Source: Tistrella mobilis
Lineage (GTDB): Bacteria; Pseudomonadota; Alphaproteobacteria; Tistrellales; Tistrellaceae
Reading direction: 5' to 3'
Assembly (NCBI RefSeq): GCF_041468085.1
Contig: NZ_CP121014.1
Location: 1 to 64,000 of the forward strand
DNA length: 64,000 bases
Below, one piece after another: positions 24,101 to 55,501 of this stretch. The notes under the pieces are model-generated. The model saw only the letters and a list, made by a program, of their open reading frames with translations. It did not search any database and had not been told where the DNA came from. A program made the position numbers and the translations under genes. Position 1 is the stretch's first letter; the number at the start of each line of letters is the position of its first letter.

Positions 24101-27100
24101 CATTGCCGCCGCCGCCGCCCACCGACTGGGCGAAGATGCCGGCCGAATTGATGCCGGTGGTCCTGAGCGTGCCGAAATTCAGCACGGTGACCAGATTGGC
24201 CGCCCCGCCGCCGCCGCCCGATCCGCCGAGCCCGAAGGAGAGCGCGCCCGAGCCGCCGCTTTCGACCGTGCTGGAGGCCGCACCGCCATTGCCGCCGCCG
24301 CCGCCGACCGACTGGGCGAAGATCGCCGCCGATTGCAGGCCGCTGGTGGTGATGCTGCCGGTGTTCACCACCGTCGCGGTCGATCCGGTGCCGCCGCCGC
24401 CGCCGGTGCCGCCCAGGCTGATGGAGCCGGCATAATTGCCGCCGGCCGCATTGGTGGTGGCCGAGCCGCCATTGCCGCCGCCGCCGCCCACCGACTGGGC
24501 GGTGATGCCGTTGGACAGCATGCCCGAGGTGGTGATGGTGGCAACGCTGCTGACCAGCACGGCGCCGCCATTGCCGGCCTTGCCGCCGGCGCCGCCGATG
24601 GCGAGCGAAGCGCCGACGCCGTTATCGGCTTCCTCGTCGGTCGAAGCGGCCGGGCCGCTCTGCGAGAACTGGGCCGCGGTCGCGACCGCCGCCCCGGTAT
24701 TGGTCTGCTGGGCGAAGCCGGTGCCGGTATAGGCGGCGACACCGCCATCCAGCGCGCCGCCCTGCTGGCCGGTGGCCGAAGCGGTGGCCGTGCCGCCATC
24801 GCCGCCGCCGCCGCCGACCGACTGGGCGAAGATCGCCGTCGACCCGGCGCCGGTGGTGGCGAGCGTGCCGCCGGCGACCACCGTCACCGCATCGGCATTG
24901 CCGCCGCCGCCGCCGAAGCCGCCCACCGCCAGCGAGGCGGCGTATTTGTTGCTGGAAGCACTGCTTTCCGAATAGCCGCCGCGGCCGCCGCCGCCGCCCA
25001 CCGACTGGGCGTAGATCGCGCTTGCGTGGTTGCCATAGGTCAGAATGCTGCCGCCGGTGGCGGTGACGCCGCCCCAGGGATTGCTGCAGCTGCCCGAGCT
25101 GACATTGCCGCAGACGGTGACCTTGCCGCCGGTGCCGCCCGTGCCGCCGCCGCCGCCGACCGCGACCGAGATGGCGCCCGTGCCCGAAATCGCATTGGCA
25201 TAGGCCGAACCGCCATTGCCGCCGCTGCCGCCCACCGACTGCGCCAGGATGGCGACCGACCGGTCGCCCGCGCCCGGATTGCCCGGCGCGACACCGGCCA
25301 TGCCGGTCTGGATGCTGCCCGTCAGCGTGACCGCGACCGTGCCGGCATTGCCGCCGGCCGCACCCGACCCGCCGATCGCGACCGAAGCCGAGCCGCTTTT
25401 CGACTGCTCGCCGCCGCCCGAGGCCGAGGCCGCGAAGGCCGAGGCATTGCCGCCATTGCCGCCGCCGCCGCCGATCGACTGGGCGATGATGCCATAGGCG
25501 TCGAACCCGCTGGTGACCAGGTTGTTGGCGACCGTCACCGAGACCGCGCCGCCATTCTGGCCGGATCCGCCGCTGCCGCCGGTGGCGCCGGCCGCACCGA
25601 CCGAGATCTTCGAGGCCGGGTTGCCGGTCGACACCGAGCCGGAATAGGCGGCACCACCGCTGCCGCCGGTGCCGCCGATCGACTGGGCGATGATCGCCGC
25701 GGCAAGATCGCCTGCGGTCGAGATGCCGGTATAGGTGTTGACGGTGACCGTGCCGCCGGTGCCGCCGCTGCCGCCATAGCCGCCGACCGCGACCGCCGGG
25801 GCCGCGATGGTCGATCCGGCAGCCCCGGCGCTGAAGCCGCCGAGACCGCCGCTGCCGCCGATCGACTGTGCCACGATGCCGTGCGACAGAAGCCCGGTGG
25901 TGGTGATGGTGTCGTAGGTGGCAATGGTCACGCCGCCCGCGGCACCGCCGCCGCCGCCGCTGCCACCCAGGCTGACGCCGGCCGACCCCAGCCCGCCCAG
26001 GCTGCCGGCGATGTCCCAGCCGCCATTGCCGCCGGCACCGCCGATCGACTGGGCCAGAATGCCGGCCGACTGATGGCCGGTGGTCGAGACGCGCCCGCCG
26101 CCCTGGATGGTGACGGTCACCTGGCTGGCGCGGCCGCCCTTGCCGCCGCCGCCGCCGATCGCGGCCGAGACCGCGCCGCTTTCGCCGAACGAGCCCGCGA
26201 TCGCGAAACCGCCCGAGCCGCCATTGCCGCCCATCGACTGGGCCACCACGCCCGGCGAGAGCGCGCCGGTGACGGTGAGGGCCGAGTAATTGTCGACGGT
26301 GACCGTGCCGCCGGTGCCGCCATTGCCGCCACCGCCGCCCACCGCCATGCTGGCGGTGCCGTTCGAGCTGAGGCCGGCGGCACCCGAAAAGCCGCCCGAG
26401 CCGCCGCCACCGCCGATCGACTGCGCCAAAAGGGCAGGGGCATTGCCGGTGGTGGCGGCAGAGACCGTGACGGCGGCCTGGTTGATCAGGCTCACCGCAC
26501 CGCCGGCACCGCCCGAGGCGCCGCTGCCGCCGGCACCGATATTCGCCGAGACCGAGCCGCTGATCGAGCCCGCCACCGCATAGCCGCCCGAGCCGCCGCC
26601 GCCGCCGATCGACTGCGCGGCGATCGCCGCCGCGCCGCCGCCATAGGTGTTGATCAGCCCGGTGTTCACCACCTGGACGGTGCCGCCATTGTTGCCGCTG
26701 CCGCCGGCGCCGCCGATCGCGGCCGAGGCGCCGCTGGAATAGCTGAGCGCGCCCGAGGTGGTGTAGCCGCCATTGCCGCCGCCACCGCCGATCGACTGCG
26801 CCAGAATGGCGCTGGCGCCATAGCCATAGGTGGTGATCGCCGCGGTCTGGCTGCTGTTCGCGGCATAATTATGGGCGGTGACCGCGCCTGCGGCACCGCC
26901 GGCGCCGCCCGATCCGCCGACGCCCAGCGACACCGCCAGCTGCGGGCTGGCCGAGAGACCCAGCGCCGAGCCGCCGGAGCCGCCGCCGCCGCCGATCGAC
27001 TGGGCCAGAATGCCGTGCGAGCTGTCGCCCGAGGTGGTGATGACGCTGCCGGTGTTCTCGACGATCACCGTGCTGCCGGCACCTGCGGCGCCGCCCGATC

Positions 27101-29937: not shown

Positions 29938-30111
29938 CGGATCGTCACACAAGAGATGTGAAGATGCACCCAGGATCATAGTTTGTGCGGCGGATTTCCT
30001 GATTTTTAACCATATGAAGCATGGGTCACATGCCGTCATTCGTCATGCGGGGCGCTGCATGGAAAACGGCGGTTTACGTGCACGTCACTCATCGCTTGAC
30101 AGAAGGCGTCT

Positions 30112-30999
30112 TCAGCTGCCCCGTGGCACGACCAGAACATCCTCGTCGACCGTCGCCAGAATGCGTTTGGCCACGCTGCCGAGCACCGCTTCTGCCACCA
30201 CGCCCTGGCCGCGGGTGCCCAGAACCACCAGGTCGGACGGCTCGCGTGCCAGTTCCGCGGCCACGGCCTCGTCTGCCGGCCCGGGCAGCACGATCCGGGT
30301 CAACCCGGCGACCCTGGATGCGGGAACCGCCAGCGCGTCGAGCGCATCGTTCAGCCGGTGTGCCGCGGTTTCGCCGAGCGCGCGGATATGGGCCGTCCGG
30401 TCGCTCGACAGATGGTGAAACGGCGTATCGAAGGCATGGATCACCGTTGCCGGCAGATCGGGCAGCAGGGTCAGGGCCGTTTCCGTCGCATGGCGGGCCG
30501 GGCCGGAAAGATCCGTAGCGATCAGCATCTGCCGGTAGGGGCGCTTCGCCCGCCGCCGCACCACCAGCACCGGCACCGACGAGCGGCGCAGCAGCCGGTC
30601 GACCGTGTCGCCGAGCAGAAGCCGGCCCATCGGCTCGTTGCGGGCAAGGCCGGTGACGATCAGGTCGAAACCGTCGTCTTCGGCGATCCTGAGGATCGTG
30701 TCGGCGGCATCGCCATCCTCCACCCGGGTGCGGATGGTGAAGGGGCTGGATGGTGCCGCGGCGTCAGCCAGCACCTCGTCCGGCAGATCGGCCAGCAGAT
30801 GGCGTTCGGCCAGGCGCAGCCGTTCATCGACCGCCATCCGGCCCAGCCCGTCGGGCTCGCTGACATGCAGCACGGTCAGCGCCGCCCCGGTCTCGCGCGC
30901 CAGCACCACCGCCCGGTCGAGCGCCCGGTCGGTGCGGGCGCTCAGATCCGTGGCAAGCAGGATGCGGGCAAGCGGGTGGGGGGTGGTGGGGGTGGGCAT
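30112..30999 (-). CDS. Tandem universal stress protein
   Basis: This 295-aa protein has two UspA domains. The first runs from ARILLATDLSARTDRALDRAV to SVPVLVVRRR (about 11-150). The second runs from RQMLIATDLSGPARHATETA to DEDVLVVPRGS (about 155-295). The second has the ATP-binding loop GTRGQGxxxxxxLGSVAKRI; the first has only the variant GLARNEPMGRLLLGDTVDRL. ATG 30999 has an AAGGAGGA site; the longer frame to 31227 is not supported. It is 32 bp downstream of the cupin gene on the same strand and may be the last gene of that string or have its own promoter. Confidence 0.9.
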   Translation of the reverse strand: MPTPTTPHPLARILLATDLSARTDRALDRAVVLARETGAALTVLHVSEPDGLGRMAVDERLRLAERHLLADLPDEVLADAAAPSSPFTIRTRVEDGDAADTILRIAEDDGFDLIVTGLARNEPMGRLLLGDTVDRLLRRSSVPVLVVRRRAKRPYRQMLIATDLSGPARHATETALTLLPDLPATVIHAFDTPFHHLSSDRTAHIRALGETAAHRLNDALDALAVPASRVAGLTRIVLPGPADEAVAAELAREPSDLVVLGTRGQGVVAEAVLGSVAKRILATVDEDVLVVPRGS

Positions 31000-31031
31000 G
31001 ACGTCCTCCTTGGTCTCGGATCCCCTGAACC

Positions 31032-31376
31032 TTACCCCGCCCCCTCGTTTCCCGCCATCTCGCTGCCCAGATGCACCGCCAGCCACACCGTCGGCTGATG
31101 GTCGTCGGTCCAGCTGACCCGATGGCGCAGCCGGGCGGGCAGCATCACATGGTCTCCGGGGCCGAGCACGATTTCGCCCTGGCCCTCGATCAGCAGCCCG
31201 GCCGATCCGGTCAGCAGCAACACCCATTCATCCCAGCCCTGATCGTACCATTCCCCCTCGGGCGTGGCCTGGCCCCACGACACGATCCGCTCGATGCGGA
31301 TGCCGGGGCGGGTCAGGATCTCGGTGAAGGCCTCGTCGATGGAGCGGGGCGGCAGGGGGGAGAGGAGGTTGGGCAT
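31032..31376 (-). CDS. Small cupin-domain protein
   Basis: This 114-aa single-domain cupin contains the barrel motifs GEWYDQGWDEWVLLLTGSAGLLIEGQGE and LGPGDHVMLPARLRHRVSWT. Only part of the classic metal-binding His/Glu set is obvious (D/E in motif 1, H in motif 2), so metal binding is uncertain. Related proteins in databases are usually cupin-2 family proteins of unknown substrate. It lies 59 bp after the HAD gene on the same strand, and the start has only a weak ribosome-binding site. Confidence 0.75.
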   Translation of the reverse strand: MPNLLSPLPPRSIDEAFTEILTRPGIRIERIVSWGQATPEGEWYDQGWDEWVLLLTGSAGLLIEGQGEIVLGPGDHVMLPARLRHRVSWTDDHQPTVWLAVHLGSEMAGNEGAG

Positions 31377-31435
31377 CGGGGTCCGGCTGATGGCGGGTGT
31401 GGCGGATGACGGCGCAGATCGTCGCGGTCCTCAGT

Positions 31436-32134
31436 CTACGGCCTTCCATCGCCCGGTGCAGCTGTCGCCATACCGGCGTCGTTGATCATCAGCACCGCCG
31501 GCAGCTCGTTCAGCCGGTTGATCGTGGCTGCGGGCGCCAGCGCCCGGCAGGCCGCTTCGGCGCCGTAGCCATAGCGGGCCCAGCAGCCATGGGCGCCGAT
31601 TGCGCGGGCATAGAGCAGATCGGCCGGGGTGTCGCCCACGACCATCACCGCCGCGGCATCGGTCGCCGCCATGTGCGGGGCGATCCGCCGACGGAAAGCG
31701 GCGGTGTCGGGCTTTCCCGCAAGGCCGATCAGGTCGCGGAAATATCCGTCGAGGCCGTGATGATCCAGGGCATCGCGAATCGAGACCTCCCCCTTGTTCG
31801 ACACCAGGATCATCTCGATCCCGGCTGCCGCAATGCGGTCGAGCGTTGCTGCAAGCTCAGGATAGGGGCGGCTTGCCCGGACGCCGACGCCGCCATTGTA
31901 GATCCGGCGGTAATCTTCCGCCCGGCTGGCGCGCCTGTCGTCCCCCAGCTCCGGCATCAGCTGCCGCAGCATGTCGTCGAGGGTCAGGCCGGCATCGATC
32001 ACCGCATTCACCGCGTCCGGCGCAAAGGGTGCCTGGCCGTGCAGCTCCGCCAGGGCGGCCAGGCTGAGGCGGATGGCGTCGCGGGTGTCGAAAAGCGTGC
32101 CGTCGAAATCGATCAGCAGGGTCTGGCAGCGCAT
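31436..32134 (-). CDS. HAD-superfamily phosphatase (phosphoglycolate phosphatase-like)
   Basis: This is a 232-aa haloacid dehalogenase-fold hydrolase. Motif I is LLIDFDGTLFDT with the nucleophile Asp and acid Asp, motif II is MILVSNKGE, the motif III lysine is near GLAGKPDTAAF, and motif IV is VMVVGDTPADLLYA. The small helical cap between motifs I and II fits subfamily IA. It starts 9 bp after the UbiD-like stop. In this operon a natural job would be removing the 5-phosphate of a ribosyl- or ribulosyl-phosphate intermediate made by the TrpD/TrpF-like enzymes; that is inference. Confidence 0.88.
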   Translation of the reverse strand: MRCQTLLIDFDGTLFDTRDAIRLSLAALAELHGQAPFAPDAVNAVIDAGLTLDDMLRQLMPELGDDRRASRAEDYRRIYNGGVGVRASRPYPELAATLDRIAAAGIEMILVSNKGEVSIRDALDHHGLDGYFRDLIGLAGKPDTAAFRRRIAPHMAATDAAAVMVVGDTPADLLYARAIGAHGCWARYGYGAEAACRALAPAATINRLNELPAVLMINDAGMATAAPGDGRP

Positions 32135-32143
32135 CGGATGCCG

Positions 32144-33586
32144 TCAGAAGACGGCGCGACGGAAGCGGTCGCGCAGGTGAAAGGGGACCGTGCAGTCCAG
32201 GATCTGCCGCGCGGTCAGGCCGTCGGGGTCGCCCGCCAGGGCGCCCGGGCGGGCGGCGGCGGATTGGGAGGGGTCGAGCGGCGTGCCCGGCAATTCTGCC
32301 GTCAGGTGCAGATCCCGCACGGGGTGGAAACGGGTGGCGATCGCCCAGAGCAGGTCGTCGCCCGCCCGCGCATCGACATCGTCGTCGACCAGCACCACCA
32401 GCTTGGCCGCCGGCAGCGCCGCGGCCGCGTCGCATGCCGCCCTGACCACCCGCAGGTCGTCTGCGGGTGCGGTTTTGGCGAGCCGAACGGCGGTGAGCAG
32501 ATGCCCGCCGCCGGCCGGTGCGGCCACCACGTCCTGCACCAGATCGCCGATCCCGGCTTTGCGCAGCATCGTCAGCATGGCCGCTTCCTGTCCTGCGCCC
32601 AGCAGTTCGGCCTGTTCGCGGCCGGGGCCGGTCACCGCCTGATAAAGCGCATCGGGCCTGTGGCTCAGGGCATCGACATGCAGCGTGGTGACGGGGCCGG
32701 CAGGCGAGGTATAGCCCAGATATTCGGGCATGGTCCGTGCATCGGCCGGGGCATCCGGTTCATGTTCGGGCTCGGTCTCGGGCCCGAGCCGGGCCTCGAT
32801 GACGATCTCGGCATGATCGATGAACCAGGCGTCACTGGTGAAACAGGGGGCCAGCGCCAGCGGCCGCCCGCGCAGGGCGCCCGCCACGGCCAGTTCGTCG
32901 TCGCCATAGGCCATCGCCGGCCGGCTGAGTGCTGCGGCGATGTAGACCGCCGGGTCGAGCCCGATGTTCACCGAGACCGGCAGGCGGTGGCCCCGCGCGG
33001 CGGCCGCGGCGATCATCCGCGCCAGATGGCCGGTGGGATTGATGCCGATGGTGGCTGAGCGGCGTTTCAGCGTGATCCGGTGAACCGAGGCATTGGCACG
33101 CCCGGCATCGTCGCGGGCATGGACCAGGCCCATCGTGATCGTCGGGCCCGGATCACCGGCGGTGCAGGTGGTGGCGGGCAGCCACATACGGAGATCCGCG
33201 CCAGGCATCACCATCCGCGGCATGGTGGCGCGGCCGCGCATCACCGGCTGCGGTGCGGCGATCGCGTCGAGCAGCAGGGCGGCATTGCCGGATCCTGCCG
33301 ATCCCGGTGCCGGCTCGGCGCCATGCCGCTGATCCGGGTCGAGCAGAAAGCGCAGGCGGCTGCGGCTGCCGAACAGGCCGGTGACGATCGGAAAGCGGCC
33401 GTGCAGCGGCCGGCGGTAGAGGTGCAACGGCTGTTCGGCCGTCATCCACGATCGACCGGGGGCCCGGATCGTTCTGAAGATGCCGGCGATCAGCCCGATC
33501 TGCGGATCGACCGGCGCGTCGACGACCTGCACCGTGTCGCCGGCACGGGCCAGGGCATCGAGCGCCGAGCGCAGATCCCCGATCAT
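32144..33586 (-). CDS. UbiD-family (de)carboxylase
   Basis: This 480-aa protein of the prenylated-FMN-dependent decarboxylase family removes CO2 from aromatic or unsaturated acids. Family features seen are an N-terminal MIGDLRSALDALARAGD, ASVHRITLKRR with the catalytic-Arg position, GHLARMIAAAAARGHRLPVSVNIGLDP, and DELAVAGALRGRPLALAP...DHAEIVIEARL. The acidic motif normally read as EGPFGEfxGYY appears as ARTMPEYLGYT, so one of the two usual glutamates seems to be missing. No ubiX-like prenyltransferase gene is in the window. ATG 33586 overlaps the MFS stop (ATGA); the extra frame up to 33847 lies inside the MFS gene. It is embedded in the PRPP-linked operon. Confidence 0.83.
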   Translation of the reverse strand: MIGDLRSALDALARAGDTVQVVDAPVDPQIGLIAGIFRTIRAPGRSWMTAEQPLHLYRRPLHGRFPIVTGLFGSRSRLRFLLDPDQRHGAEPAPGSAGSGNAALLLDAIAAPQPVMRGRATMPRMVMPGADLRMWLPATTCTAGDPGPTITMGLVHARDDAGRANASVHRITLKRRSATIGINPTGHLARMIAAAAARGHRLPVSVNIGLDPAVYIAAALSRPAMAYGDDELAVAGALRGRPLALAPCFTSDAWFIDHAEIVIEARLGPETEPEHEPDAPADARTMPEYLGYTSPAGPVTTLHVDALSHRPDALYQAVTGPGREQAELLGAGQEAAMLTMLRKAGIGDLVQDVVAAPAGGGHLLTAVRLAKTAPADDLRVVRAACDAAAALPAAKLVVLVDDDVDARAGDDLLWAIATRFHPVRDLHLTAELPGTPLDPSQSAAARPGALAGDPDGLTARQILDCTVPFHLRDRFRRAVF

Positions 33587-34866
33587 TCCGCAAACCGGTG
33601 CGACATGTCTGCCATGACCGGCCGCCTGCGGTCGGCGACCGCGATGCAGGCCACCGACAGCAGGGCGCAGGCGCCGCTTGACAGGATCGACGTCGCATAG
33701 CTGCGGGTCAGATCGAACAGCAGCCCTGCCAGGCTGCCGCCGGCGATGGCGGCGATGCCGACCGCCAGATATAGCGTCCCCAGGATGGCGCCCAGATGCC
33801 GGGTGCCGAACCAGCCCGCGGCGACCGCGGGGTAGAGCGCAATGCAACCGCCATTGGCCGCCCCGAAGGCCACGGCGAACACGGCGAGGGCTGCGAACCC
33901 GCCGGCGGCGAGCCAGAGCCCGTTCAGCAGGGCGAGGGCGAAAGTGAGCAGGACCAGCAGGCGCAGGGGGCCCATCCGATCGCCCAGCCGGCCCAGAAAC
34001 AGCCGCCCGCCGATATTGCCGGCACCGATCAGCCCGATCAGCAGATTGGCCCGGGCCTCCGGCAGCCCGAGTGCCTGCGCATAGGGGTTGATATGAACCA
34101 GGGCGAGGAACAGCCCGACCGATCCGAACAGGATCGCGGCGAAATACCAGTGGAAGCGCGCAGTCCGGGCGGCTTCGGCCAGGGTGGTGTCGCGGATGGC
34201 GGCCGGGCCGGCCGCCATGGTCCGCGGGATCTGCCCGTCGCGCCTTGCCGTGCCGGCCGGCGGCGCCGGGTCGCCATCCGGCCGCAGGCCCAGCGCTGCG
34301 GGCGAGCCGTGGATCCGCAGGGTCGCGACAAGGCCGAGCACCAGGATGACGGCCGCAAAGATCCTGAGCGTCGTCTCGAAGGGCAGGGTGGTCAGCAGGG
34401 CCCCGGCCGCCACCGGCCCGACGAAGGTGCCGACCCCGGTGCCGGACAGGGCCAGGCCCGATGCCGCCGCCCGGTTGCGCACGAACCAGCGCTGCACCGC
34501 GGTCACCGTCGGCACATAGACCAGCCCCACCCCCAGCCCGACCAGGCTGCAGAAGACGATCAGGAACCCGCTCAGCGAGCCGGTCATGAAACTTGCCCCG
34601 AAGAATCCGGCCGAGAGGGCGATGATGCCGGCGGCCACCACCATGCGGGTCGAAATCCGGTCGGCGATCGTGCCCGAGACGATGCCTGTCGCATAATAGA
34701 GGAAGGCGGTCGCCGAGAAGATGGAGGCGACCGAAAAGCGGCCGGCATCGAAGGCCTGCTGCAGATGGGTGAAAAAGGCCCCGAAGGAATAGGCGGCGCC
34801 GAAGATCAGCATCAGCAGCAGATGGGCGGCCACGACCAGGAACCAGCCCGGAAAGATCCTAGGCAT
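33583..34866 (-). CDS. MFS transporter, monocarboxylate/oxalate-formate type
   Basis: This is a 427-aa twelve-helix major facilitator. The start WFLVVAAHLLLMLIFGAAYSFGAFFTHLQQAF and the GTIADRISTRMVV loop match the MCT/OFA-like families that carry small organic anions. A central cytoplasmic loop of about 45 residues (SPAALGLRPDGDPAPP onward) divides the two halves, and the second half has the mirrored GGRLFLGRLGDRMG motif. ATG 34866 overlaps the previous gene by 8 nt and the stop overlaps the UbiD-like start by 4 nt, so it is part of the same translationally coupled operon and presumably moves its substrate or product. Confidence 0.88.
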   Translation of the reverse strand: MPRIFPGWFLVVAAHLLLMLIFGAAYSFGAFFTHLQQAFDAGRFSVASIFSATAFLYYATGIVSGTIADRISTRMVVAAGIIALSAGFFGASFMTGSLSGFLIVFCSLVGLGVGLVYVPTVTAVQRWFVRNRAAASGLALSGTGVGTFVGPVAAGALLTTLPFETTLRIFAAVILVLGLVATLRIHGSPAALGLRPDGDPAPPAGTARRDGQIPRTMAAGPAAIRDTTLAEAARTARFHWYFAAILFGSVGLFLALVHINPYAQALGLPEARANLLIGLIGAGNIGGRLFLGRLGDRMGPLRLLVLLTFALALLNGLWLAAGGFAALAVFAVAFGAANGGCIALYPAVAAGWFGTRHLGAILGTLYLAVGIAAIAGGSLAGLLFDLTRSYATSILSSGACALLSVACIAVADRRRPVMADMSHRFAE

Positions 34867-36103
34867 GGATCTCCAGCTCCTCTGCCAGGGATGCCGAGGG
34901 GCCGTAGCCCAGGCCGACCACGCGTGAGCGCGGCCCGTCGACCGCAATGCGGACCAGGGTGCGGACATTCAGGCCGGTTGCCTGCCGCACCCGGCCCACG
35001 CCGTCGTAATCCACCTTCTCGGCCACGCAGACCACCTGTTCGACCACCGCACCCGCGCGCCGCACCGCCTCGATCAGGCCGATCAGCGTGCCGCCGGTGC
35101 TGATCAGATCGTCGACGATCGCCACCCGGTCGCCCGCATCGACCCCGTTCAGATAAAGCCCGCCCGACGTGTATTCGCAGGAGAAATCCACCGATACCTG
35201 TCCCGCCAGACCCGAGGGGTACCAGCGCGCGATGCCGTAGGGCAGCCCCGACAGCAGCGACACCGCGGCGAGCAGGGCGCCGCCCTTGTCCTCTTCACCC
35301 ACGAGCTTGAGCCCAGGGTCGAGGTCGAGCGCATCGCAGCAGCGTTCGGCGGCGCATCGCAGCAGCCCGGCCGTGGTCGCCGGCACCTGCTCGGTCAGCG
35401 GATTGACCAGGAACTGCCGGCCGTCGATCTCGATCAACGGCCGGTCGTCGAAGGCATCGACCAGCAGGTCGCCACCGTCAGCGACGTCGCGCCGTGCCCG
35501 GCGCACGGCGTCGACGAAGGCACGCATCCGGGCCGGATCCTTGCGTCTGGCATCGGCGGCGACGCCCGAGCTGACATCCACCATGGCGGGGTTCAGCCGG
35601 CGGATCACCTCTCCAACCGTGTCGGCCGTCAGGCCGCCTGCGATGATGACCGGGCGGGGTAAAGCCAGGCCGCGCAACAGCCGCCAGTCGAAACGCCGGC
35701 CGGTGCCGCCGGCCTTGCCCTCGACCAGCGTGTCGAACAGGCAGGCCGCCACCTGATAGTCCGCGACCCGGCGGGCGTCCACGGACCCGCCGACCTTGAA
35801 ACCCTTGATCACGGGGCGCCCGACCGCCCGGCAGTAATCGGGGTCTTCATCGCCCTGCAGCTGAACCATCGAGACTCCGGCCGCGGCGCTTGCCTCCTGA
35901 ACCCGGGCAAGCGGCTCGTCGACGAAGACACCGACGGTCGCCATGAAGGGCGGCAGCCGGTCGATGATCGCCCGCACCTCGGCCGCGCCGATCTGACGCG
36001 GGCTTGCGGACATGACGAATCCCAGCGCATCGGCCCCGGCCGCGACGGCCGCCAGCGCATCTTCCGCGGTCGTTATGCCGCAGATCTTCACACCGCTTCT
36101 CAT
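34859..36103 (-). CDS. TrpF-like isomerase fused to a type-I phosphoribosyltransferase
   Basis: This is a 414-aa two-domain protein. Residues 1-205 are a phosphoribosylanthranilate isomerase (Amadori rearrangement). VKICGITTAEDALAAVAAGADALGF carries the catalytic Cys, LFDTLVEGKAGGTGRRFDW the general-acid Asp, and AMVDVSSGVAADARRKD the phosphate-binding end. Residues about 215-414 form a PRT domain with EEDKGGALLAAVSLLSGLPYGIARW and the PRPP loop VAIVDDLISTGGTLIG, like adenine/orotate PRTs. All key residues appear intact in both halves. ATG 36103 overlaps the TrpD-like stop (ATGA), and its stop overlaps the MFS start. I am not aware of this fusion in ordinary tryptophan synthesis, where TrpF is fused to TrpC or stands alone. 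Confidence 0.85.
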   Translation of the reverse strand: MRSGVKICGITTAEDALAAVAAGADALGFVMSASPRQIGAAEVRAIIDRLPPFMATVGVFVDEPLARVQEASAAAGVSMVQLQGDEDPDYCRAVGRPVIKGFKVGGSVDARRVADYQVAACLFDTLVEGKAGGTGRRFDWRLLRGLALPRPVIIAGGLTADTVGEVIRRLNPAMVDVSSGVAADARRKDPARMRAFVDAVRRARRDVADGGDLLVDAFDDRPLIEIDGRQFLVNPLTEQVPATTAGLLRCAAERCCDALDLDPGLKLVGEEDKGGALLAAVSLLSGLPYGIARWYPSGLAGQVSVDFSCEYTSGGLYLNGVDAGDRVAIVDDLISTGGTLIGLIEAVRRAGAVVEQVVCVAEKVDYDGVGRVRQATGLNVRTLVRIAVDGPRSRVVGLGYGPSASLAEELEIHA

Positions 36104-37158
36104 CGATCCTGCCCCAGAAAACGCATCAATACCTGCCGGGCACCGCCGCTGGTCAGGGCATGCAGGGCCATCGCGGCCCCCTCGGTAAAGCCGCGCGCCC
36201 GTCCCGCAGCCATCAGCGTCAGGGCGGCGGCCATGACGACGGCATCTGTTCCGGGGCCGCGGCTGCCCGCCAGGATGGCCTGGCAGATCGCGGCATTCCG
36301 GGCCGCATCGCCGCCCGCCAGATCGTCCAGGCTGCAAGCTGCCAGGCCGAAATCGGCGGCGGACACCGTCATTCGATCCACGGCCCCGCCGTCCACGCGG
36401 ATGACCACGGTCTCTCCGGCCGGGCTGATCTCGTCGATACCGGCCAGGCCGTGGACGATGAAGGCCCGGCTCCGGCCCAGCTCGCGCGCGGCATCGGCCA
36501 TGTCCCTGATCTGCCAGGGCCGGGCCACGCCCACCACCTGCCGCCGCAGACCCGCGGGATGGGCAAGGGGGCCTGCCAGATTGAACAGGCTTGGAATGCC
36601 GAGGGCGCGGCGCAGGGCGCTCAGGCGTTCGGGAAAGCGGTAATGGGCCGGGGTGGCGATGAAGGCGAAGCCGCAGCGGTCGAGATCGGCGCCGACGATG
36701 TCGGGGTGGCTGCGGCGGATCGGGTCTGCCCCCAGCGCCTCGATCAGATCGGCGCTGCCGGCCCGGCCGCTGACGGCGCGGTTGCCGTGTTTGACCACCG
36801 GCACGCCGGCGCCCGCCACGACCAGTGCGGCCACGGTCGAGATGTTGAAGGTCCGTCCGCCATCGCCGCCGGTGCCGCCGATATCGACGGCGTCGTCGGT
36901 GCATATCTGCAGGGCCGGCGTGTGGTCCAGCAGGGCATCGACGGCTCCGGCGATCTCTTGAGCGGCCTCGTGCCGCTGTGCCATCAGCGCGAGTATGGCG
37001 CCGGCCTGTTCGGGGGCATAGCGATCCTCCAGCAGGTCGGCGACCATCCACCGCGCCTGCTCGCGGTGCAGGAGATGACGGCCAGGCGCCGCCGCCAGAT
37101 CCCTGATCAACGCCTTCGGGTCGATCCTTGGCCTTTCGGTCGTCGGGATCGCGGTCAT
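36100..37158 (-). CDS. trpD: TrpD-like anthranilate phosphoribosyltransferase
   Basis: This 352-aa protein, normal for TrpD, couples PRPP with anthranilate or a similar aryl amine. The N-terminal helical domain precedes the PRPP-binding glycine motif GTGGDGGRTFNIST (about residue 93 on). HGNRAVSGRAGSADLIEALG holds the anthranilate/Mg site and differs from the usual HGNRSVSS by Ala. NLAGPLAHPAGLRRQVVGV is also present. ATG 37158 overlaps the hydrolase stop (ATGA), and its own stop overlaps the TrpF-PRT start. With no trpE, G, C, A or B nearby, a role outside tryptophan synthesis is likely. The exact acceptor cannot be read from the sequence. Confidence 0.87.
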   Translation of the reverse strand: MTAIPTTERPRIDPKALIRDLAAAPGRHLLHREQARWMVADLLEDRYAPEQAGAILALMAQRHEAAQEIAGAVDALLDHTPALQICTDDAVDIGGTGGDGGRTFNISTVAALVVAGAGVPVVKHGNRAVSGRAGSADLIEALGADPIRRSHPDIVGADLDRCGFAFIATPAHYRFPERLSALRRALGIPSLFNLAGPLAHPAGLRRQVVGVARPWQIRDMADAARELGRSRAFIVHGLAGIDEISPAGETVVIRVDGGAVDRMTVSAADFGLAACSLDDLAGGDAARNAAICQAILAGSRGPGTDAVVMAAALTLMAAGRARGFTEGAAMALHALTSGGARQVLMRFLGQDR

Positions 37159-37763
37159 CGCGGGTGATCCAGGCCCAGAAGCGCGGTCACCTGCGCAACG
37201 GGCATCACCCGGCCCAGCACATAGCCGATATGCTCCAGCGCGGCGTCGTGGCGGGCGCGGCTGGTGCCGGCCACGCAGTCTTCGGCCACGATGACCCGAT
37301 AGTCGAGCTGCAGCCCGTCCTGCGCGGTGGCACGCACGCAGACATCGGTGGCGACGCCCGTCAGCACCAGCGTGTCGACGCCGAGACCGCGAAGCAGCAG
37401 GTCCAGATCGGTCGCGAAGAAGCCGCTGTAGCGGCGCTTGATCAGCACGTAGTCGTCGGGTTCGGGTGCAAGTTCGTCGATGATCTCGATGCCGCGGGTG
37501 CCCTCGACACAATGCAGGGTTTCGCCATATTCCAGTTCAAGGCCGAAATCGACCCGCTGGCGGCGATGGGATTCGCGGGTATAGATCACCGGCAGCCCGG
37601 CGGCACGGGCCGTGGCGCAGAGACGGCGGATGGCGGGCACGATGTCCTGCGCGCCCGGACAGGCAATCGGCGCATCGTCATCGACGAAATCATGCTGCAT
37701 GTCGATGACCAGAATGGCGGCCCGCCCCGCAGGGCGCGGGCCGGAGGCTGCGCTGTCGCTCAT
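37155..37763 (-). CDS. Isochorismatase-fold cysteine hydrolase
   Basis: This is a 202-aa hydrolase of the isochorismatase/nicotinamidase/RutB superfamily. The Asp-Lys-Cys triad is visible in VIDMQHDFVDDD, LIKRRYSGFFATDLDLLL and GVATDVCVRATAQDG. Members hydrolyse amides, carbamates or isochorismate; the substrate here is unknown. A GGAG site precedes ATG 37763. It lies 12 bp after the LLM oxidoreductase gene, a neighbour pair that recalls RutA-RutB in pyrimidine catabolism, and it overlaps the TrpD-like gene. Confidence 0.87.
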   Translation of the reverse strand: MSDSAASGPRPAGRAAILVIDMQHDFVDDDAPIACPGAQDIVPAIRRLCATARAAGLPVIYTRESHRRQRVDFGLELEYGETLHCVEGTRGIEIIDELAPEPDDYVLIKRRYSGFFATDLDLLLRGLGVDTLVLTGVATDVCVRATAQDGLQLDYRVIVAEDCVAGTSRARHDAALEHIGYVLGRVMPVAQVTALLGLDHPR

Positions 37764-37775
37764 GGGAAGGCTCCG

Positions 37776-38852
37776 TCAGGCGAAGGTCGATGCGGCGATG
37801 CCGGCCAGACGGGCATGGCTTTCACGTGTCGGCTCCAGCTCGTCCAGATGGTCGAAGCACATCACATGCAGGGTGCCGAAACCGCCCGACAGCTCCTGCA
37901 TTTCGGCGATCCGGTCGGCCACCGTTTCGGGAGAGCCGGTGATCCAGCAGTGCTTTGCCACATAGTCGACCGTCACGTCGGAATCGGGCACGTCCGGATG
38001 ATGCTTCATCAGGCCGAGGGCGTTGTTGCCCTTCAGCATGGGCAGATAGTCCTCGCGGAAATAGCGGCCCATCTCGCCGCCGACCGAACGGCGCCACGCC
38101 TCCTCGTCGGTTTCCGCCACGAAGAAGGGGCGGCTGACCCGCCAGTCGGCGCGCGACGGGGCGGCACGGCCGCGGCGCTGCGCGCCCTCTTCCACCATTG
38201 CCCAATGGGTGTGCAGATATTGGGGCGTGAAGCAGAAGCTGATCGGCAGCCAGCCGTTTTCACCCGCCAGCCTGAGAGTGGGCGAGGATGCCGACAGCCC
38301 CGTCACCCCGATGGGCGGGTAGGGCTTCTGCAGCGGCTTCAGGTGATAGCCGGTGGCCTTCTCCGGCTGATCTGCCGGCCGACGCACGGTCCAGAAGCGG
38401 CCGCGATATTCGAACGGGCCCTCGCTTTCCCAGAACCGGGTCATGATCTCGATCGATTCCGCGGTCATCTCGCGGTGCACGCCGGCGCGATGGTCGATGT
38501 CGAACATTTCAAGGTCCAGGACCGTACCGCTGGCCCCGATGCCGATCATCAGCCGACCGTCCGAGATATGGTCCAGCATGCAGATCCGGTGGGCGAGTTC
38601 CGCCGGATGGTGGAACGGCAGCATGAACGCGCCGGGGGCCAGGCGGATGTGCCGTGTCCGCAGGAAGGCCTGGGCGATCAGCAGATCCGGTGACGGGCAG
38701 GGCTCGGCCGGCATCATGTAGTGCTCGCCGATCCAGGCCTCGGCGAAGCCGATCCGATCCAGATACTCCAGCGTGTCAAGATCGTGGAAATGGCCGTCGC
38801 GGAGTGATCGCGACGCAGGATGCGCGGGCATCAGGAAGGCGCCGAGCTGCAT
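37776..38852 (-). CDS. LLM-class flavin-dependent oxidoreductase
   Basis: This is a 358-aa luciferase-like TIM-barrel monooxygenase that would use reduced FMN and O2. Family segments are MQLGAFLMPAHPA, YLDRIGFAEAWIGEHYM, HIRLAPGAFMLPFHHPAELAHRICMLDHISDGRLMIGIGASG (the bacterial-luciferase core), YPPIGVTGLSASSPTLRLAGENGW and CWITGSPETVADRI. It is the first gene of the minus-strand string with a good GAGGA site at ATG 38852 and a plausible promoter upstream. In the operon it may carry out the initial or final oxygenation of the aromatic substrate; a flavin reductase is not encoded nearby. Confidence 0.88.
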   Translation of the reverse strand: MQLGAFLMPAHPASRSLRDGHFHDLDTLEYLDRIGFAEAWIGEHYMMPAEPCPSPDLLIAQAFLRTRHIRLAPGAFMLPFHHPAELAHRICMLDHISDGRLMIGIGASGTVLDLEMFDIDHRAGVHREMTAESIEIMTRFWESEGPFEYRGRFWTVRRPADQPEKATGYHLKPLQKPYPPIGVTGLSASSPTLRLAGENGWLPISFCFTPQYLHTHWAMVEEGAQRRGRAAPSRADWRVSRPFFVAETDEEAWRRSVGGEMGRYFREDYLPMLKGNNALGLMKHHPDVPDSDVTVDYVAKHCWITGSPETVADRIAEMQELSGGFGTLHVMCFDHLDELEPTRESHARLAGIAASTFA

Positions 38853-38888
38853 GGATGTCCTCGAATGCCGGAAGCGACGAAGATCATC

Positions 38889-38916
38889 ATCTTATCGGAT
38901 ATAAATACAAACGCAA
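38889..38916 (-). promoter_or_regulatory. Sigma-70-type promoter candidate for the LLM-trpD-ubiD operon
   Basis: Reading the minus strand, TTGCGT (38911-38916) and TAAGAT (38889-38894) are separated by 16 bp, in the only AT-rich stretch of the 38853-39069 spacer. The predicted start is about 30 bp before the gene. No clear operator palindrome was seen beyond short CAATTTGCAATT-like direct repeats. Confidence 0.5.
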
Positions 38917-39000
38917 TTTGCAATTAAGAACGGATATTGTTCACGCAGAACGCGATGGAGGATCGCGTGGATACCGGCCGCCCATGTCATTGACGGAACG

Positions 39001-39035
39001 AAAAATCCCCGCCATCCGGATGGATGGCGGGGATT
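39001..39035 (-). terminator. Intrinsic terminator after amtB
   Basis: A perfect 14-bp stem AATCCCCGCCATCC / GGATGGCGGGGATT with a 4-nt loop spans 39004-39035. Read on the minus strand it is followed by TTT completing a T5 run, exactly where transcription from amtB should stop. Confidence 0.9.
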
Positions 39036-39069
39036 GTCGGGGTATTCGTCTTGCCGGACGAAACCGGCC

Positions 39070-40422
39070 TCAGTTGTGATAGGCGGCTTCGCCGTGGCTG
39101 GACAGGTCCAGGCCCTCGGTCTCGGATTCCTTGCTGACCCGCAGGCCGACGAGCAGGTCGACGATCTTGTACAGGATCAGGCTGCCGATGCCCGACCAGG
39201 CGATGGTGACCAGCACGGCCAGGATCTGGGTCCAGACCTGGTCGGCCATGGTCACGCCGTCGGCATAGCCGATGCCACCCAGCGACGCGCTGGTGAACAC
39301 GCCGGTGCCGACCGCACCGACGATGCCGCCGATGCCGTGCACGCCGAACACGTCCAGGCTGTCGTCATAGCCCAGCTTGTTCTTCACCACCGTCACGAAG
39401 AAGTAGCAGATCGCCGAGGCGATGATGCCGAGCACGATCGCGCCCACCGGGCCGATCAGGCCGGCGGCCGGGGTGACGGCGACCAGGCCGGCGACGATGC
39501 CCGAGGCGGCGCCCAGCATCGAAGCCTTGCCGCGGGCCAGGCTTTCGATCACCACCCAGGCGACCAGGGCGCCGGCGGTGGCGGTGAAGGTGTTGATCAT
39601 GGCAAGTGCTGCGCCGCCGGTGGCTTCCAGGTTGGAACCGGCGTTGAAGCCGAACCAGCCGACCCACAGGATCGCGGCGCCGACCATGGTCAGCGTCATC
39701 GAATGCGGGGCCATCATGTCACGGCCAAGGCCGATGCGCTTGCCGACCATGATGCAGCCCACCAGGCCCGCGATGCCGGCATTGATGTGCACCACCGTGC
39801 CGCCGGCGAAATCCAGCGCGCCCCAGGCGAAGAGCATGCCGTCGGAATCCCACACCATGTGGGCGATCGGGAAGTAGACGAAGGTGACCCACAGGATCAC
39901 GAACAGCACCACCGCCGTGAAGCGCATGCGCTCGGCGAAGGCGCCGACGATCAGCGCCGGGGTGATGCAGGCGAAGGTCATCTGGAAGCAGATGAACACG
40001 TATTCGGGGATCACCACGCCGTCGGTGAAGGTGGCGGCGACGCTGTCCATGGTGACGCCGGCCAGGAAGGCCTTGTCCAGCCCGCCCCAGAACATGCTGG
40101 GGGCATCGCCGAAGGCCATCGAATAGCCCCAGAGCGTCCAGACGATGATCACCACGCCGGTGATCATGGTGCACTGCATCAGCACCGAGAGCATGTTCTT
40201 GGCGCGCACCAGACCGCCATAGAACAGCGCCAGACCCGGCAGGATCATGAAGAGGACCAGGATGGTGGAGACCATCATCCAGGCGGTATCGCCCTTGTCC
40301 ATCGTCACGGCGGCCTCTGTGGCCGCCTCCGCGGCTGCGGGTGCCGCATCCTGCGCCCAGGCCGGCAGCGCCGACAAGGCGAGGGCGGGCGCCGCAGCGA
40401 GTAGGGTTTTCAGGTGCTTCAT
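39070..40422 (-). CDS. amtB: AmtB ammonium transporter
   Basis: This is a 450-aa Amt/Rh-family channel that conducts ammonium. A signal peptide (MKHLKTLLAAAPALALSALPAWAQDA) precedes eleven hydrophobic segments. Signature sequences are WMMVSTILVLFMILPGLALFYGGLVRAKNMLS, HMVWDSDGMLFAWGALDFAGGTVVHINAGIAGLV with the first pore His, and DDSLDVFGVHGIGGIVGAVGTGVF with the second. ATG 40422 follows AGGGGATA; the frame opens at 40452. A glnK gene, its usual upstream partner, is absent here. The promoter region has a sigma-54 signature, fitting nitrogen control. Confidence 0.95.
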   Translation of the reverse strand: MKHLKTLLAAAPALALSALPAWAQDAAPAAAEAATEAAVTMDKGDTAWMMVSTILVLFMILPGLALFYGGLVRAKNMLSVLMQCTMITGVVIIVWTLWGYSMAFGDAPSMFWGGLDKAFLAGVTMDSVAATFTDGVVIPEYVFICFQMTFACITPALIVGAFAERMRFTAVVLFVILWVTFVYFPIAHMVWDSDGMLFAWGALDFAGGTVVHINAGIAGLVGCIMVGKRIGLGRDMMAPHSMTLTMVGAAILWVGWFGFNAGSNLEATGGAALAMINTFTATAGALVAWVVIESLARGKASMLGAASGIVAGLVAVTPAAGLIGPVGAIVLGIIASAICYFFVTVVKNKLGYDDSLDVFGVHGIGGIVGAVGTGVFTSASLGGIGYADGVTMADQVWTQILAVLVTIAWSGIGSLILYKIVDLLVGLRVSKESETEGLDLSSHGEAAYHN

Positions 40423-40524
40423 TACTATCCCCTGGTCCTCGAGGAACTGCATGACTGCGAAGCGGTCGAAGTTCGGTCTTCATCGGCGGGCCGGAGAGGC
40501 CCGGACGCGGCCATCGCCCCTTTA

Positions 40525-40540
40525 GGCAAACTTCGCGCCA
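40525..40540 (-). promoter_or_regulatory. Sigma-54 promoter of amtB
   Basis: On the minus strand TGGCGCGAAGTTTGCC shows GG-N10-GC, the strict -24/-12 spacing of sigma-54 promoters, with TTTGC matching the -12 consensus. The expected start is near 40514, leaving about 90 nt of leader before the amtB ATG. Confidence 0.6.
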
Positions 40541-40590
40541 GTTTGGGAAGTCACGGAAAACTCACCGGAAAAACCCTGGTCTGCTCTGGC

Positions 40591-40606
40591 GGTGCAGCAT
40601 GGTGCA
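40591..40606 (-). promoter_or_regulatory. NtrC-like half-sites upstream of the amtB promoter
   Basis: Two directly repeated GGTGCA elements (TGCACC on the amtB strand) occur at 40591-40596 and 40601-40606, about 55-80 bp upstream of the -24 element. They resemble NtrC half-sites, but the canonical inverted pair is not formed, so this is tentative. Confidence 0.35.
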
Positions 40607-40670
40607 CGCTCATTGAATGATCAGGCGCCTAAAATGGAGGCAATTGTCACAGACGGGCAGAGACGAAGAT

Positions 40671-40698
40671 GCCGCCCCGTCCGGGGGGACGGGGCGGC
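40671..40698 (-). terminator. Strong GC hairpin after the TauD-like gene
   Basis: A 12-bp perfect stem GCCGCCCCGTCC / GGACGGGGCGGC with a 4-nt G loop lies 37 bp beyond the TauD-like stop. There is no T-run, so it may need Rho or act as an mRNA 3' end protector. Confidence 0.6.
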
Positions 40699-40735
40699 AT
40701 GCCGGGCGCCTGTTACGACGGGTGGGCCCTGCCGG

Positions 40736-41578
40736 TCAGACCGGCCGGTCGGTCCCCTTGATCGTGGTGCGGTGCATGATGCGCCGGTACTTCACGTCGT
40801 CATAGGGGGTGGCCTTGTGCATGGTGCAGCGGTTGTCCCAGATCAGCAGATCGCCTTCCTGCCATTTGTGGCGATAGACGAATTCATCGGAAATCGCGTG
40901 GGCGTTGAGCGTGGCCAGCAGGGCCGCCGCCTCTTCCGCCGGCAGGTCCAGGATCTCCTTCACGATGTCCTCGCCCACATAGAGCGACAGCCGGCCGGTC
41001 TCGGGATGGGTGCGGACCACCGGGTGCACGACATCCGGGGTGGCGGCGCGCTGGGCATCGGTCAGCGGCTCGCGGTCGCCGAAGGCCTTGTCGTAATAGC
41101 CGGCATAGGAATGCACCGCCTTCAGATGGCGGATCTTCGCCTGCATCTCGGGGTCGAGCGCTTCCCAGGCGGCATGCATCGACGAGAACAGCGTGTCGGC
41201 GCCTTCCGGCGGGCATTCGCGGGCATAGAGCACCGAGCCGAAGCAGGGGATCTCCAGATAGGACCAGTCGGAGTGCCAGTTCCAGCCCTCCTTGTGGTTG
41301 CCGATCGAGCGGCCGGCTTCCTTGACGTTCGACAGCACATAGATCTCGGGATGTGCCGTCGTCAGATACTGGGTCAGCACATGGATCTGCAGATCGCCGA
41401 AATGGCGCGAGAAGGCGACATGCTGGGCCTCCGTCAGGGTCTGGCCGCGCAGCAGCAGCACCGAATGCGTGTTCAGCAGGTCGCGCATCTCCGCGACCAT
41501 GGCATCGGAAATCGGCGCCGAGGCGTCGACGCCCAGGATCTCGACGCCGATCACGGGCGAGAGTTCCTTGATCTCCAT
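40736..41578 (-). CDS. TauD/TfdA-family Fe(II)/2-oxoglutarate dioxygenase
   Basis: This is a 280-aa non-heme iron dioxygenase. The 2-His-1-Asp triad is visible in NWHSDWSY (HxD) and the distal His in CTMHKATPYDD, with the 2-oxoglutarate-binding Arg in RRIMHRTTI. Length and the N-terminal IGVEILGVDAS match TauD/TfdA enzymes acting on taurine, aryloxyacetates or other sulfonates and ethers; the substrate is undefined. It is the last gene of the ABC-aldolase operon, 45 bp after the aldolase, with a GGAAGGA site. Confidence 0.9.
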   Translation of the reverse strand: MEIKELSPVIGVEILGVDASAPISDAMVAEMRDLLNTHSVLLLRGQTLTEAQHVAFSRHFGDLQIHVLTQYLTTAHPEIYVLSNVKEAGRSIGNHKEGWNWHSDWSYLEIPCFGSVLYARECPPEGADTLFSSMHAAWEALDPEMQAKIRHLKAVHSYAGYYDKAFGDREPLTDAQRAATPDVVHPVVRTHPETGRLSLYVGEDIVKEILDLPAEEAAALLATLNAHAISDEFVYRHKWQEGDLLIWDNRCTMHKATPYDDVKYRRIMHRTTIKGTDRPV

Positions 41579-53155: not shown

Positions 53156-54255
53156 CCGACCGCAAGACCATTCTGCTGGTGGACGACACCCCGTCCAATC
53201 TCACCATCGTCAACGCGGTGCTGAAGGACGATTACCGCACCCGCATCGCCACCGGCGGCGCCAAGGCGCTGGAGATCGCCGCCGCGGCGGAAGGCCGGCC
53301 CGATCTGGTGCTGATGGACGTGATGATGCCGGGCATGGACGGTTACGAGGTCTGCCGGCGGCTGAAGGCCGATCCGGCCACCGCCGACATTCCGGTCATC
53401 TTCCTGACCGCGCTTCACGACGAGCGCGACGAGCGCGCGGGCTTCGCGGCCGGCGGGGTCGATTTCATCACCAAACCGTTCTCGCCCGAGATCGTGCGGG
53501 CCCGGGTGCGCACCCATCTGGCGCTCAGGGAAGCCAATGCCCGGCTCGCGCGCCAGAATGCCGAGCTGGAGCGGCGGGTGGAAGAGCGTACGCGTGAACT
53601 GGCCCTGGTCCGCGACCTGACCATCTTCTCGCTCGCCTCGCTGGCCGAGACCCGCGACAACGAGACCGGCAACCATATCCGCCGCACCCAGACCTATGTC
53701 CGCGAACTGGCGCTGGCCCTCAGGGACCATCCCCGCTTTCGCGCGGAACTCGACGATGCCACCATCGACCTGCTCTACAAATCCGCCCCGCTGCACGATA
53801 TCGGCAAGGTCGGCGTGCCCGATGCCATCCTGCTCAAGCCCGGCCGGCTGACGCCCGAGGAATTCGAGGTGATGAAGCAGCACGCCGAATACGGCCGCGC
53901 CGCCATCGCCGCCGCCGAGGCCCGCATCGGCTCGGGCAATGGCAATTCCTTCCTCCGCTACGCCCGCGAGATCGCCCATACCCATCACGAAAAATGGGAC
54001 GGCAGCGGCTACCCCCGCGGCCTGGCCGGCGACGCCATCCCGCTCTCGGGCCGGCTGATGGCGGTGGCCGATGTCTATGACGCGCTGATCTGCCGGCGGA
54101 TCTACAAGCCCGCCTATTCCCACGACACCGCGGTCGACATCATCACCCAGGGCCGCGGCACCCATTTCGACCCCGACATCGTCGACGCCTTCCTGACCAT
54201 CGCCGACCGCTTCCGCGACATCGCGGCGGAGTTTGCCGATCCGGACGAGGGGTGA
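53152..54255 (+). CDS. RpfG-like response regulator with HD-GYP domain
   Basis: This is a 367-aa REC-HD-GYP protein, a probable cyclic-di-GMP phosphodiesterase. The receiver has Asp56 in [13 protein letters not shown] and the T/K switch in FLTALHDE and [10 protein letters not shown] coiled linker ([17 protein letters not shown]) leads to the HD-GYP core [17 protein letters not shown] and [14 protein letters not shown], with all ligands intact. It is translationally coupled to the hybrid kinase, so Hpt His1441 to Asp56 phosphotransfer is expected. Lowering cyclic-di-GMP would shift surface attachment, which is notable near a giant adhesin. Confidence 0.92.
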
Positions 54256-54518
54256 CGAGCGAATAGAATTGCCCGCAATGCGCTCTGCTGATTTGCCAGA
54301 TGGGCCAAGCCTGCGGGTGGTCGCTGGCGGGCCTTCGTGCGGGCGCTGTTGAGCAAGCGGGCAAAGGCAATCGGTCACGTGTATATGAGGAAACTATAAT
54401 TTATATTTATGGGTTGAAATTTGCTGATGTCGGACAAACAAAATAGAACTCAGGTGGGTTGCGTCAGTTGGGGCACATATCCATGCGCCCTCTGACGAGA
54501 TGGAGGTGGAGCATCATC
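54256..54518. other. AT-rich entry to an island; spacer without a gene
   Basis: Base composition changes from GC-rich to clearly AT-rich near 54360-54430. TATAAT at 54395-54400 is a good -10 for the plus strand and would drive the two lipoprotein genes; the -35 is poor. No coding region or repeat was supported in 54256-54450. Confidence 0.5.
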
Positions 54519-54809: not shown

Positions 54810-54822
54810 ATGGAGATGTAAC

Positions 54823-55494: not shown

Positions 55495-55501
55495 TTGTTA
55501 C

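Follow-up and report, generated by a model that had tools for sequence, protein, structure and literature searches.

A conserved gene cassette of Tistrella mobilis with TrpD, a TrpF-phosphoribosyltransferase fusion and UbiD as a candidate phosphoribosyl pyrophosphate pathway apart from tryptophan synthesis

Gene content and organization of the cassette

The window analysed, a stretch of 64,000 nucleotides from Tistrella mobilis (contig NZ_CP121014.1, positions 1 to 64,000), contains seven open reading frames (ORFs) on its minus strand between positions 31436 and 38852, encoding, in this order, a luciferase-like flavin monooxygenase (LLM), an isochorismatase-fold cysteine hydrolase (ISO), a TrpD-like phosphoribosyltransferase (PRT), a fusion of TrpF with a second, purine-type PRT, a transporter of the major facilitator superfamily (MFS), a UbiD-family decarboxylase, and a hydrolase of the haloacid dehalogenase (HAD) family. 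Judged from sequence comparisons, this cassette is a rare, horizontally moving, putative phosphoribosyl pyrophosphate (PRPP) pathway that stands apart from tryptophan synthesis and for which a chemistry and a substrate can be proposed. The seven genes, their order, and their bounds, which are exact, agree with the original prediction from the DNA letters. Its description of the genes as tightly overlapping applied to four of the six junctions, with overlaps of 4 bases each (ISO/TrpD, TrpD/TrpF-PRT, and MFS/UbiD) or 8 bases (TrpF-PRT/MFS), but not to the other two, which nearly abut with gaps of 12 (LLM/ISO) and 9 bases (UbiD/HAD), all for the chosen starts. With junctions this close (8 bases of overlap at one extreme, 12 bases of gap at the other), the seven genes likely share one transcript. 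No RNA switch was found before the operon, the region 30000-41000 being devoid of Rfam matches at gathering scores.

The first gene of the operon, LLM (37776..38852), matches Pfam family PF00296 (Bac_luciferase, 152 bits). Its closest structure in the PDB is 3,6-diketocamphane 1,6-monooxygenase (4uwm; 1.5e-44), of the type II Baeyer-Villiger monooxygenases, which makes a ketone, such as an Amadori product, a possible substrate; a ring amide would be possible too. A branch of LLM relatives with 50-52% identity (L080-L086) occurs in seven other genomes among 398 of the phylum, representing two genera; other cluster genes were not near these relatives in the five of the seven genomes that were fetched, and the branch was dropped as a clue to the reaction of LLM. 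The second gene, ISO (37155..37763), belongs to Pfam family PF00857 (Isochorismatase, 176 bits), and residues D21, K109, and C142, presumably its catalytic triad, are kept in all seven copies of the cassette found. The third gene (36100..37158; Pfam Glycos_transf_3, 232 bits) encodes a TrpD-like PRT with an altered acceptor region, which passes the NCBIfam model TIGR01245 (299.7 bits vs a cut-off of 199.05).

The fourth gene (34859..36103) joins TrpF (residues 1-200) to a purine-type PRT (about residues 205-400). The TrpF half matches the PRAI family (PF00697, 135 bits vs a cut-off of 22.7) and narrowly misses its best NCBIfam equivalog (206.1 vs 215). Aligned with the TrpF of Thermotoga maritima, it keeps C8, R36, and D124, presumably the active-site cysteine, arginine, and aspartate. 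The PRT half carries the complete motif VAIVDDLISTGGT, presumably the PRPP motif, and remains slightly under the cut-off of Pfam family PF00156 (25.2 vs 26.3 bits). Similarly, its nearest NCBIfam models, representing adenine PRT and hypoxanthine/guanine PRT, were both matched below cut-off (PRK12560, 135.1 of 188; HPT_Archaea, 123.4 of 200). A structural model of the fusion, made from seven sequences (predicted local distance difference test, pLDDT, 79; predicted template modelling score, pTM, 0.51), matches TrpF and then, in its second half, about equally xanthine PRT (XPRT, 6w1i; 4.0e-12) and adenine PRT (APRT, 5b6h; 1.8e-11). By its motif VAIVDDLISTGGT and the purine-PRT fold of this model, the second half is predicted to be a class I PRT.

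The fifth gene (33583..34866; Pfam MFS_1, 131 bits) encodes an MFS transporter of the lactate/oxalate-formate-like type, scoring below cut-off with the NCBIfam model SfMCT (163.9 bits vs 320). The sixth gene (32144..33586, with its start at 33586) encodes a UbiD-family decarboxylase with the UbiD Rift and C-terminal domains (PF01977, 129.7 bits; PF20696 UbiD_C, 88.1 bits), the UbiD_N domain being slightly under its cut-off (22.7 vs 24.3); its closest PDB structure is the protocatechuate decarboxylase AroY (5o3m; 1.5e-60). The last gene (31436..32134; HAD_2, 70 bits) encodes a phosphoglycolate-phosphatase-like HAD hydrolase with a DFDGT motif, presumably the nucleophile motif, and was found in four of the seven copies. 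In a Rhizobium copy (L009), the HAD gene is directly followed by a UbiX gene (PRK06029, 257 bits vs a cut-off of 188), which backs the view of UbiD as an enzyme using prenylated flavin mononucleotide (FMN); in addition, a UbiX-like match was present in all six genomes tested, that of the host included. The cluster UbiD is full-length, has AroY as best PDB match, and in Rhizobium is followed by UbiX, features shared with AroY-type decarboxylases and their UbiX partner, but it differs from these in being placed among PRPP enzymes.

Occurrence, mobility and selection

The proposed gene-neighbourhood search for a TrpF-PRT fusion together with UbiD and LLM retrieved the six core genes (LLM, ISO, TrpD, TrpF-PRT, MFS, and UbiD) in one and the same order at seven loci, i.e., the window and six further ones (L009, L011, L012, L013, L014, and L031), so that the cluster is indeed conserved elsewhere. 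The six further loci are named as Rhizobium (one locus), Pseudomonas (three loci, among which L011 and L014), and Burkholderia (two loci, L013 and L031), genera that belong to the NCBI classes Alpha-, Gamma-, and Betaproteobacteria, respectively. Among 72,556 plasmid records, the best match for the fusion was found on a plasmid of Rhizobium phaseoli, the only one of 1909 with more than 60% identity, and this plasmid copy has the complete set of seven genes, in unchanged order, together with UbiX. Similarly, plasmid searches with LLM, ISO, UbiD, and TrpD returned the Rhizobium copies first and then relatives with less than 50% identity (best 15 to 25 matches of each). A scan of the genomes of 84,980 species with the PRT half, which requires one of two exact peptide patterns and hence gives lower bounds, revealed at least six relatives, namely three in Pseudomonas and one in Burkholderia with the cassette and two in Chloroflexi with a lone PRT. 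The fusion-type PRT occurred in one of 385 genomes sampled from the class of the window, taken to be the Alphaproteobacteria (the window genome itself), in one of 398 from the Pseudomonas kilonensis genus, and in two of 299 genomes of the family of Burkholderia ubonensis, one more of which contained a lone PRT.

When the six further loci were compared with one another, flanks with more than 300 matching bases in common were seen for the two Burkholderia copies (L013 and L031) only. In both of these, the cluster sits between the genes for a DNA polymerase II and a permease, which are about 0.5 kb apart, without the cluster, at two other Burkholderia loci (L075 and L077) that represent empty sites. 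Furthermore, a weak integrase match was found beside one Pseudomonas copy (L014; 25.0 bits vs a cut-off of 27.1). The permease belongs to the xanthine/uracil family (PF00860), and a link to purine transport was considered and rejected, as it occurs in 36 of 41 genomes of the genus, both cluster bearers included (E of 1e-150 or below). Cluster genes were found in none of five permease stretches from other Burkholderia, in three of which no polymerase was found within the stretch. Being widespread in Burkholderia, the permease is probably a native neighbour outside the cassette.

Ratios of nonsynonymous to synonymous substitution rates (dN/dS; Nei-Gojobori method, best aligned piece per gene only) were 0.026-0.153 for the seven genes of the Pseudomonas pair (L011 vs L014) and 0.035-0.25 for six genes of the Burkholderia pair (L013 vs L031), indicating that the cluster genes are under purifying selection. 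Every core gene is in one frame without inner stops at four of the seven loci (window, L011, L013, and L031). The fusion is unbroken in six of the seven; in the Rhizobium copy, TrpF has a frame-shifting deletion and the PRT frame is still open. Over the main aligned pieces, LLM (79-81% identity to the window copy at the six other loci) and ISO (74-80%) are the best conserved genes, and TrpD (49-55%), UbiD (52-54%), and HAD (43-48%) the least conserved ones. Because purifying selection acts on these genes and their order is the same in three classes despite differing surroundings, their association is more than chance.

Relatives of the PRT half also occur without the cassette. Five of the 398 genomes sampled from the P. 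kilonensis genus (L026-L030) encode a PRT that stands alone and shares 42-47% identity with the PRT half of the window; it is part of a four-gene set, complete in all five, with genes for a cysteine-synthase-like (PALP) enzyme, an EamA transporter, and an ATP-grasp ligase; the first of these is frame-broken in L026, and the ligase scored above the cut-off of PRK07206 in the one tested. These PRK12560-type Pseudomonas clusters resemble the cassette in their PRT but differ from it in that this PRT stands alone and has other partners. As the lone relatives keep the same three partners in five out of five cases, this branch of PRTs seems to be used in accessory pathways. One genome of the B. ubonensis family encodes a PRT with 57% identity to that of the window, next to a protein without Pfam match and a DegT aminotransferase (L032:7065-10227). 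In a member of the Anaerolineales (L015:5641-10585), a lone PRT relative is located downstream of what appear by eye to be a glycyl-radical enzyme and its activase, together with a PNPOx-like protein.

Elsewhere in the window, a ParB-family protein is encoded near the contig start (1628-2530, plus strand), for which reason the cluster may lie outside the main chromosome, on a plasmid or a second replicon. The G+C fraction drops to 0.551 at positions 54001-56000, compared with about 0.7 on either side. A glycine-rich repetitive protein of 5655 residues, whose start resembles a signal sequence and whose end resembles a beta-barrel, is encoded at 12195-29162 on the minus strand. This giant neighbouring ORF was rejected as a nonribosomal peptide synthetase partner of the cluster, as it reads by eye as a glycine-rich autotransporter.

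Relation to tryptophan synthesis

All seven cluster TrpD proteins keep the GTGGD and KHGN motifs as well as the carboxylate-binding Arg183 (R193 in Mycobacterium tuberculosis), the roles of which in TrpD are described in PMC5537072 and PMC9835598. Compared with 30 housekeeping TrpD enzymes, eight switches are fixed in all seven, namely R27, L43, T169, F175, S190, A195, H200, and F233. Five of these (T169, F175, S190, A195, and H200) replace the A, A, T, L, and N, respectively, that are found in 28-30 of the 30 housekeeping enzymes. When the M. tuberculosis enzyme is aligned with its GTGGD (107-111) and R193 as anchors, its positions 179-210 match positions 169-200 of the cluster proteins, so that these five switches fall in the stretch holding H183, R193, and R194, residues that belong to the anthranilate channel according to PMC9835598. 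The cluster enzymes are thus without the family-typical residues at five positions of the anthranilate-channel stretch. Because of these switches, and because the carboxylate-binding arginine is kept, the acceptor of the cluster TrpD would bear a carboxylate beside an amine, yet would not simply be anthranilate. In addition, all seven cluster TrpDs group in a single clade apart from the 30 housekeeping TrpDs with a support of 100/100, in a tree that comprises housekeeping enzymes from relatives of the window, with the TrpDs of the other hosts' own trp genes left out, and for which the program warns of long branches.

The genome of the host contains, on another contig (C4), another trpF, another trpD, and the only trpC (encoding indole-3-glycerol phosphate synthase) found in this genome. 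Similarly, a second trpF was retrieved from all four named Pseudomonas and Burkholderia genomes with the cluster (G385-G388), and none from the Rhizobium plasmid record, which was searched as a plasmid record alone. The strain hence does not lack other trp genes, and the cluster is not its only trp copy. As had been stated before, no linked trpC, trpA/B, or trpE/G was seen, none of these families occurring among the 29 window ORFs run through Pfam (seven of which are without any family, some possibly called on the wrong strand). Given the separate housekeeping copies and the diverged TrpD clade, tryptophan synthesis was rejected as the role of the cassette. Like the enzymes of tryptophan biosynthesis, the cluster TrpD and TrpF keep the PRPP, carboxylate-binding, and aligned active-site residues, but the cassette differs from that pathway by its TrpD acceptor changes, its TrpF-PRT fusion, its UbiD, and the absence of TrpC/A/B/E/G among the scanned ORFs.

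The original prediction of a candidate PRPP-dependent pathway is thus borne out as far as a distinct, conserved cluster is concerned that is not the sole trp set of the strain, whereas the reactions themselves remain predicted ones. Among the matches listed from the open-licence literature, none describes the gene set or its chemistry, in agreement with the earlier statement that no described pathway has this set. Indeed, the enzyme families are all known; it is their combination and the fusion that seem new.

Proposed route and alternative explanations

With somewhat less than an even chance, the cassette is tentatively read as an accessory operon that moves horizontally, is separate from tryptophan synthesis, and makes a small molecule from PRPP by a predicted route. 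In a first step, TrpD would put the phosphoribose of PRPP on a (hetero)aromatic acid with an amine next to its carboxylate, such as anthranilate or a look-alike; LLM and ISO may supply this acid or act later, finishing the product. Secondly, the TrpF half would make a 1-amino-1-deoxyketose phosphate in an Amadori step. Thirdly, UbiD, with prenylated FMN from UbiX, would remove the carboxylate that TrpC removes in tryptophan synthesis. Fourthly, HAD or a phosphatase of the host would take off the phosphate. Lastly, MFS would move the product or the substrate. The fused purine-type PRT would phosphoribosylate a ring nitrogen of an intermediate, adding a second group, or act on a partner base.

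Several points weigh against this reading. As to distribution, searches of two congeners did not recover the fusion, and two Rhizobium etli plasmids hold only remnants of the cassette (L033:8921-11444 and L035:3489-11158), consisting of a broken LLM, fragments of ISO and PRT, and an MFS gene that is intact on one plasmid and split on the other. Three of the seven loci have broken core genes (TrpF in L009; LLM, MFS, and UbiD in L012; LLM in L014), which may reflect decay or assembly error. Furthermore, the comparison of the window with a Burkholderia copy (L013) gave higher dN/dS values of 0.15-0.39, with dS at 0.8-1.2, a rough estimate when dS is near 1. As to the enzymes, the substrate of AroY, the nearest solved relative of UbiD, is a hydroxybenzoate rather than an N-ribosylated acid, and L011 has Gln in place of one Glu in a conserved UbiD motif. 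UbiX adjoins the cluster in only one of the seven loci (L009), and HAD was not found in L012, L013, and L031 (best match E 0.69). The MFS protein resembles carboxylate transporters, which often import, and the second PRT is without an assigned step.

Uptake and degradation would be the first alternative. MFS would then import a heterocycle or aromatic acid, LLM would open a ring or amide, ISO would cut a ureido or amide bond, and the amino-acid product would go to TrpD, TrpF, and UbiD for disposal or salvage. This alternative is unlikely, and is kept because of the carboxylate-type MFS, closest to lactate and oxalate/formate transporters, and the start of the operon with LLM and an amidohydrolase-like protein. 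Indeed, a luciferase-family flavin enzyme adjoining an isochorismatase-fold cysteine hydrolase recalls the Rut pyrimidine pathway (RutA and RutB), and the best NCBIfam models of ISO are biuret amidohydrolase (104.5 bits vs a cut-off of 370) and RutB (101.5 vs 378). However, each of the five NCBIfam models that ISO matches is matched below cut-off, and no RutA model occurs among the best 25 of the 26 NCBIfam matches of LLM, the remaining one being weaker than E 7e-4 (other Rut genes were not searched for). The earlier label of a RutB-like hydrolase hence holds as a general resemblance but not as an assignment. Moreover, PRPP would be spent twice in such a catabolic route, the seven proteins include no coenzyme A (CoA) ligase, ring-cleaving dioxygenase, or regulator according to Pfam, and the LLM relatives mentioned above lack the other cluster genes nearby in the five genomes fetched. 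As two PRPP-using enzymes are present and no gene for ring cleavage, CoA ligation, or regulation is among the seven, synthesis is favoured over catabolism.

A route to a nucleoside analogue, in which LLM and ISO would open a fused dioxopyrimidine to an amino-carboxylate, TrpD, TrpF, and UbiD would rebuild a bicycle, and the PRT would convert it into a nucleotide, is quite unlikely. It would agree with the purine-PRT fold of the PRT half (xanthine and adenine PRT), with purine PRTs being its nearest models, if below cut-off, and with the fusion of this PRT to TrpF in six of the seven loci. However, base specificity is unreadable from a sequence, and the permease next to the Burkholderia copies, being probably native there, offers no link to purines within the cassette.

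That the cluster TrpD and TrpF are resistant spare copies, guarding a producer against an antimetabolite made by the other genes, is improbable. Housekeeping trpD and trpF genes do exist besides the cluster copies, and acceptor-region residues of the cluster TrpD are changed; yet two spare targets would be needed and none is provided for trpC, trpE, or trpG, the TrpF-PRT fusion points to a linked reaction, and the Rhizobium copy has a broken TrpF with an open PRT frame. Redundant tryptophan biosynthesis genes with unrelated neighbours, as which the score of TrpD above the TIGR01245 cut-off might be taken, are hardly credible in view of the six-gene order kept in three classes, the single diverged TrpD clade, the other copies elsewhere in the genome, and the absence of trpA/B/C/E/G among the ORFs scanned.

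With synthesis of a PRPP-derived molecule as the preferred reading, the cassette would possibly, though somewhat short of probably, represent a new PRPP pathway in which the first half of tryptophan synthesis is detached and fused to a purine-type PRT and a prenyl-flavin decarboxylase replaces TrpC. Its product would be an undescribed ribose-derived metabolite, either a decarboxylated aryl-amino-ketose or a bicyclic nucleoside-like compound, and the pathway would be spreading among unrelated bacteria. If so, tryptophan-pathway enzymes work outside amino-acid synthesis, the TrpF-PRT fusion couples two ribosylation steps, and UbiD acts in the usual place of TrpC. Even on a cautious reading, the labels 'trpD', 'trpF', and 'ubiD' on the cluster genes are not to be taken as indicating tryptophan or ubiquinone genes. 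If the proposed pathway holds, the operon, small (about 7.4 kb) and easily expressed, with standard assays for every family involved, would be open to product discovery.

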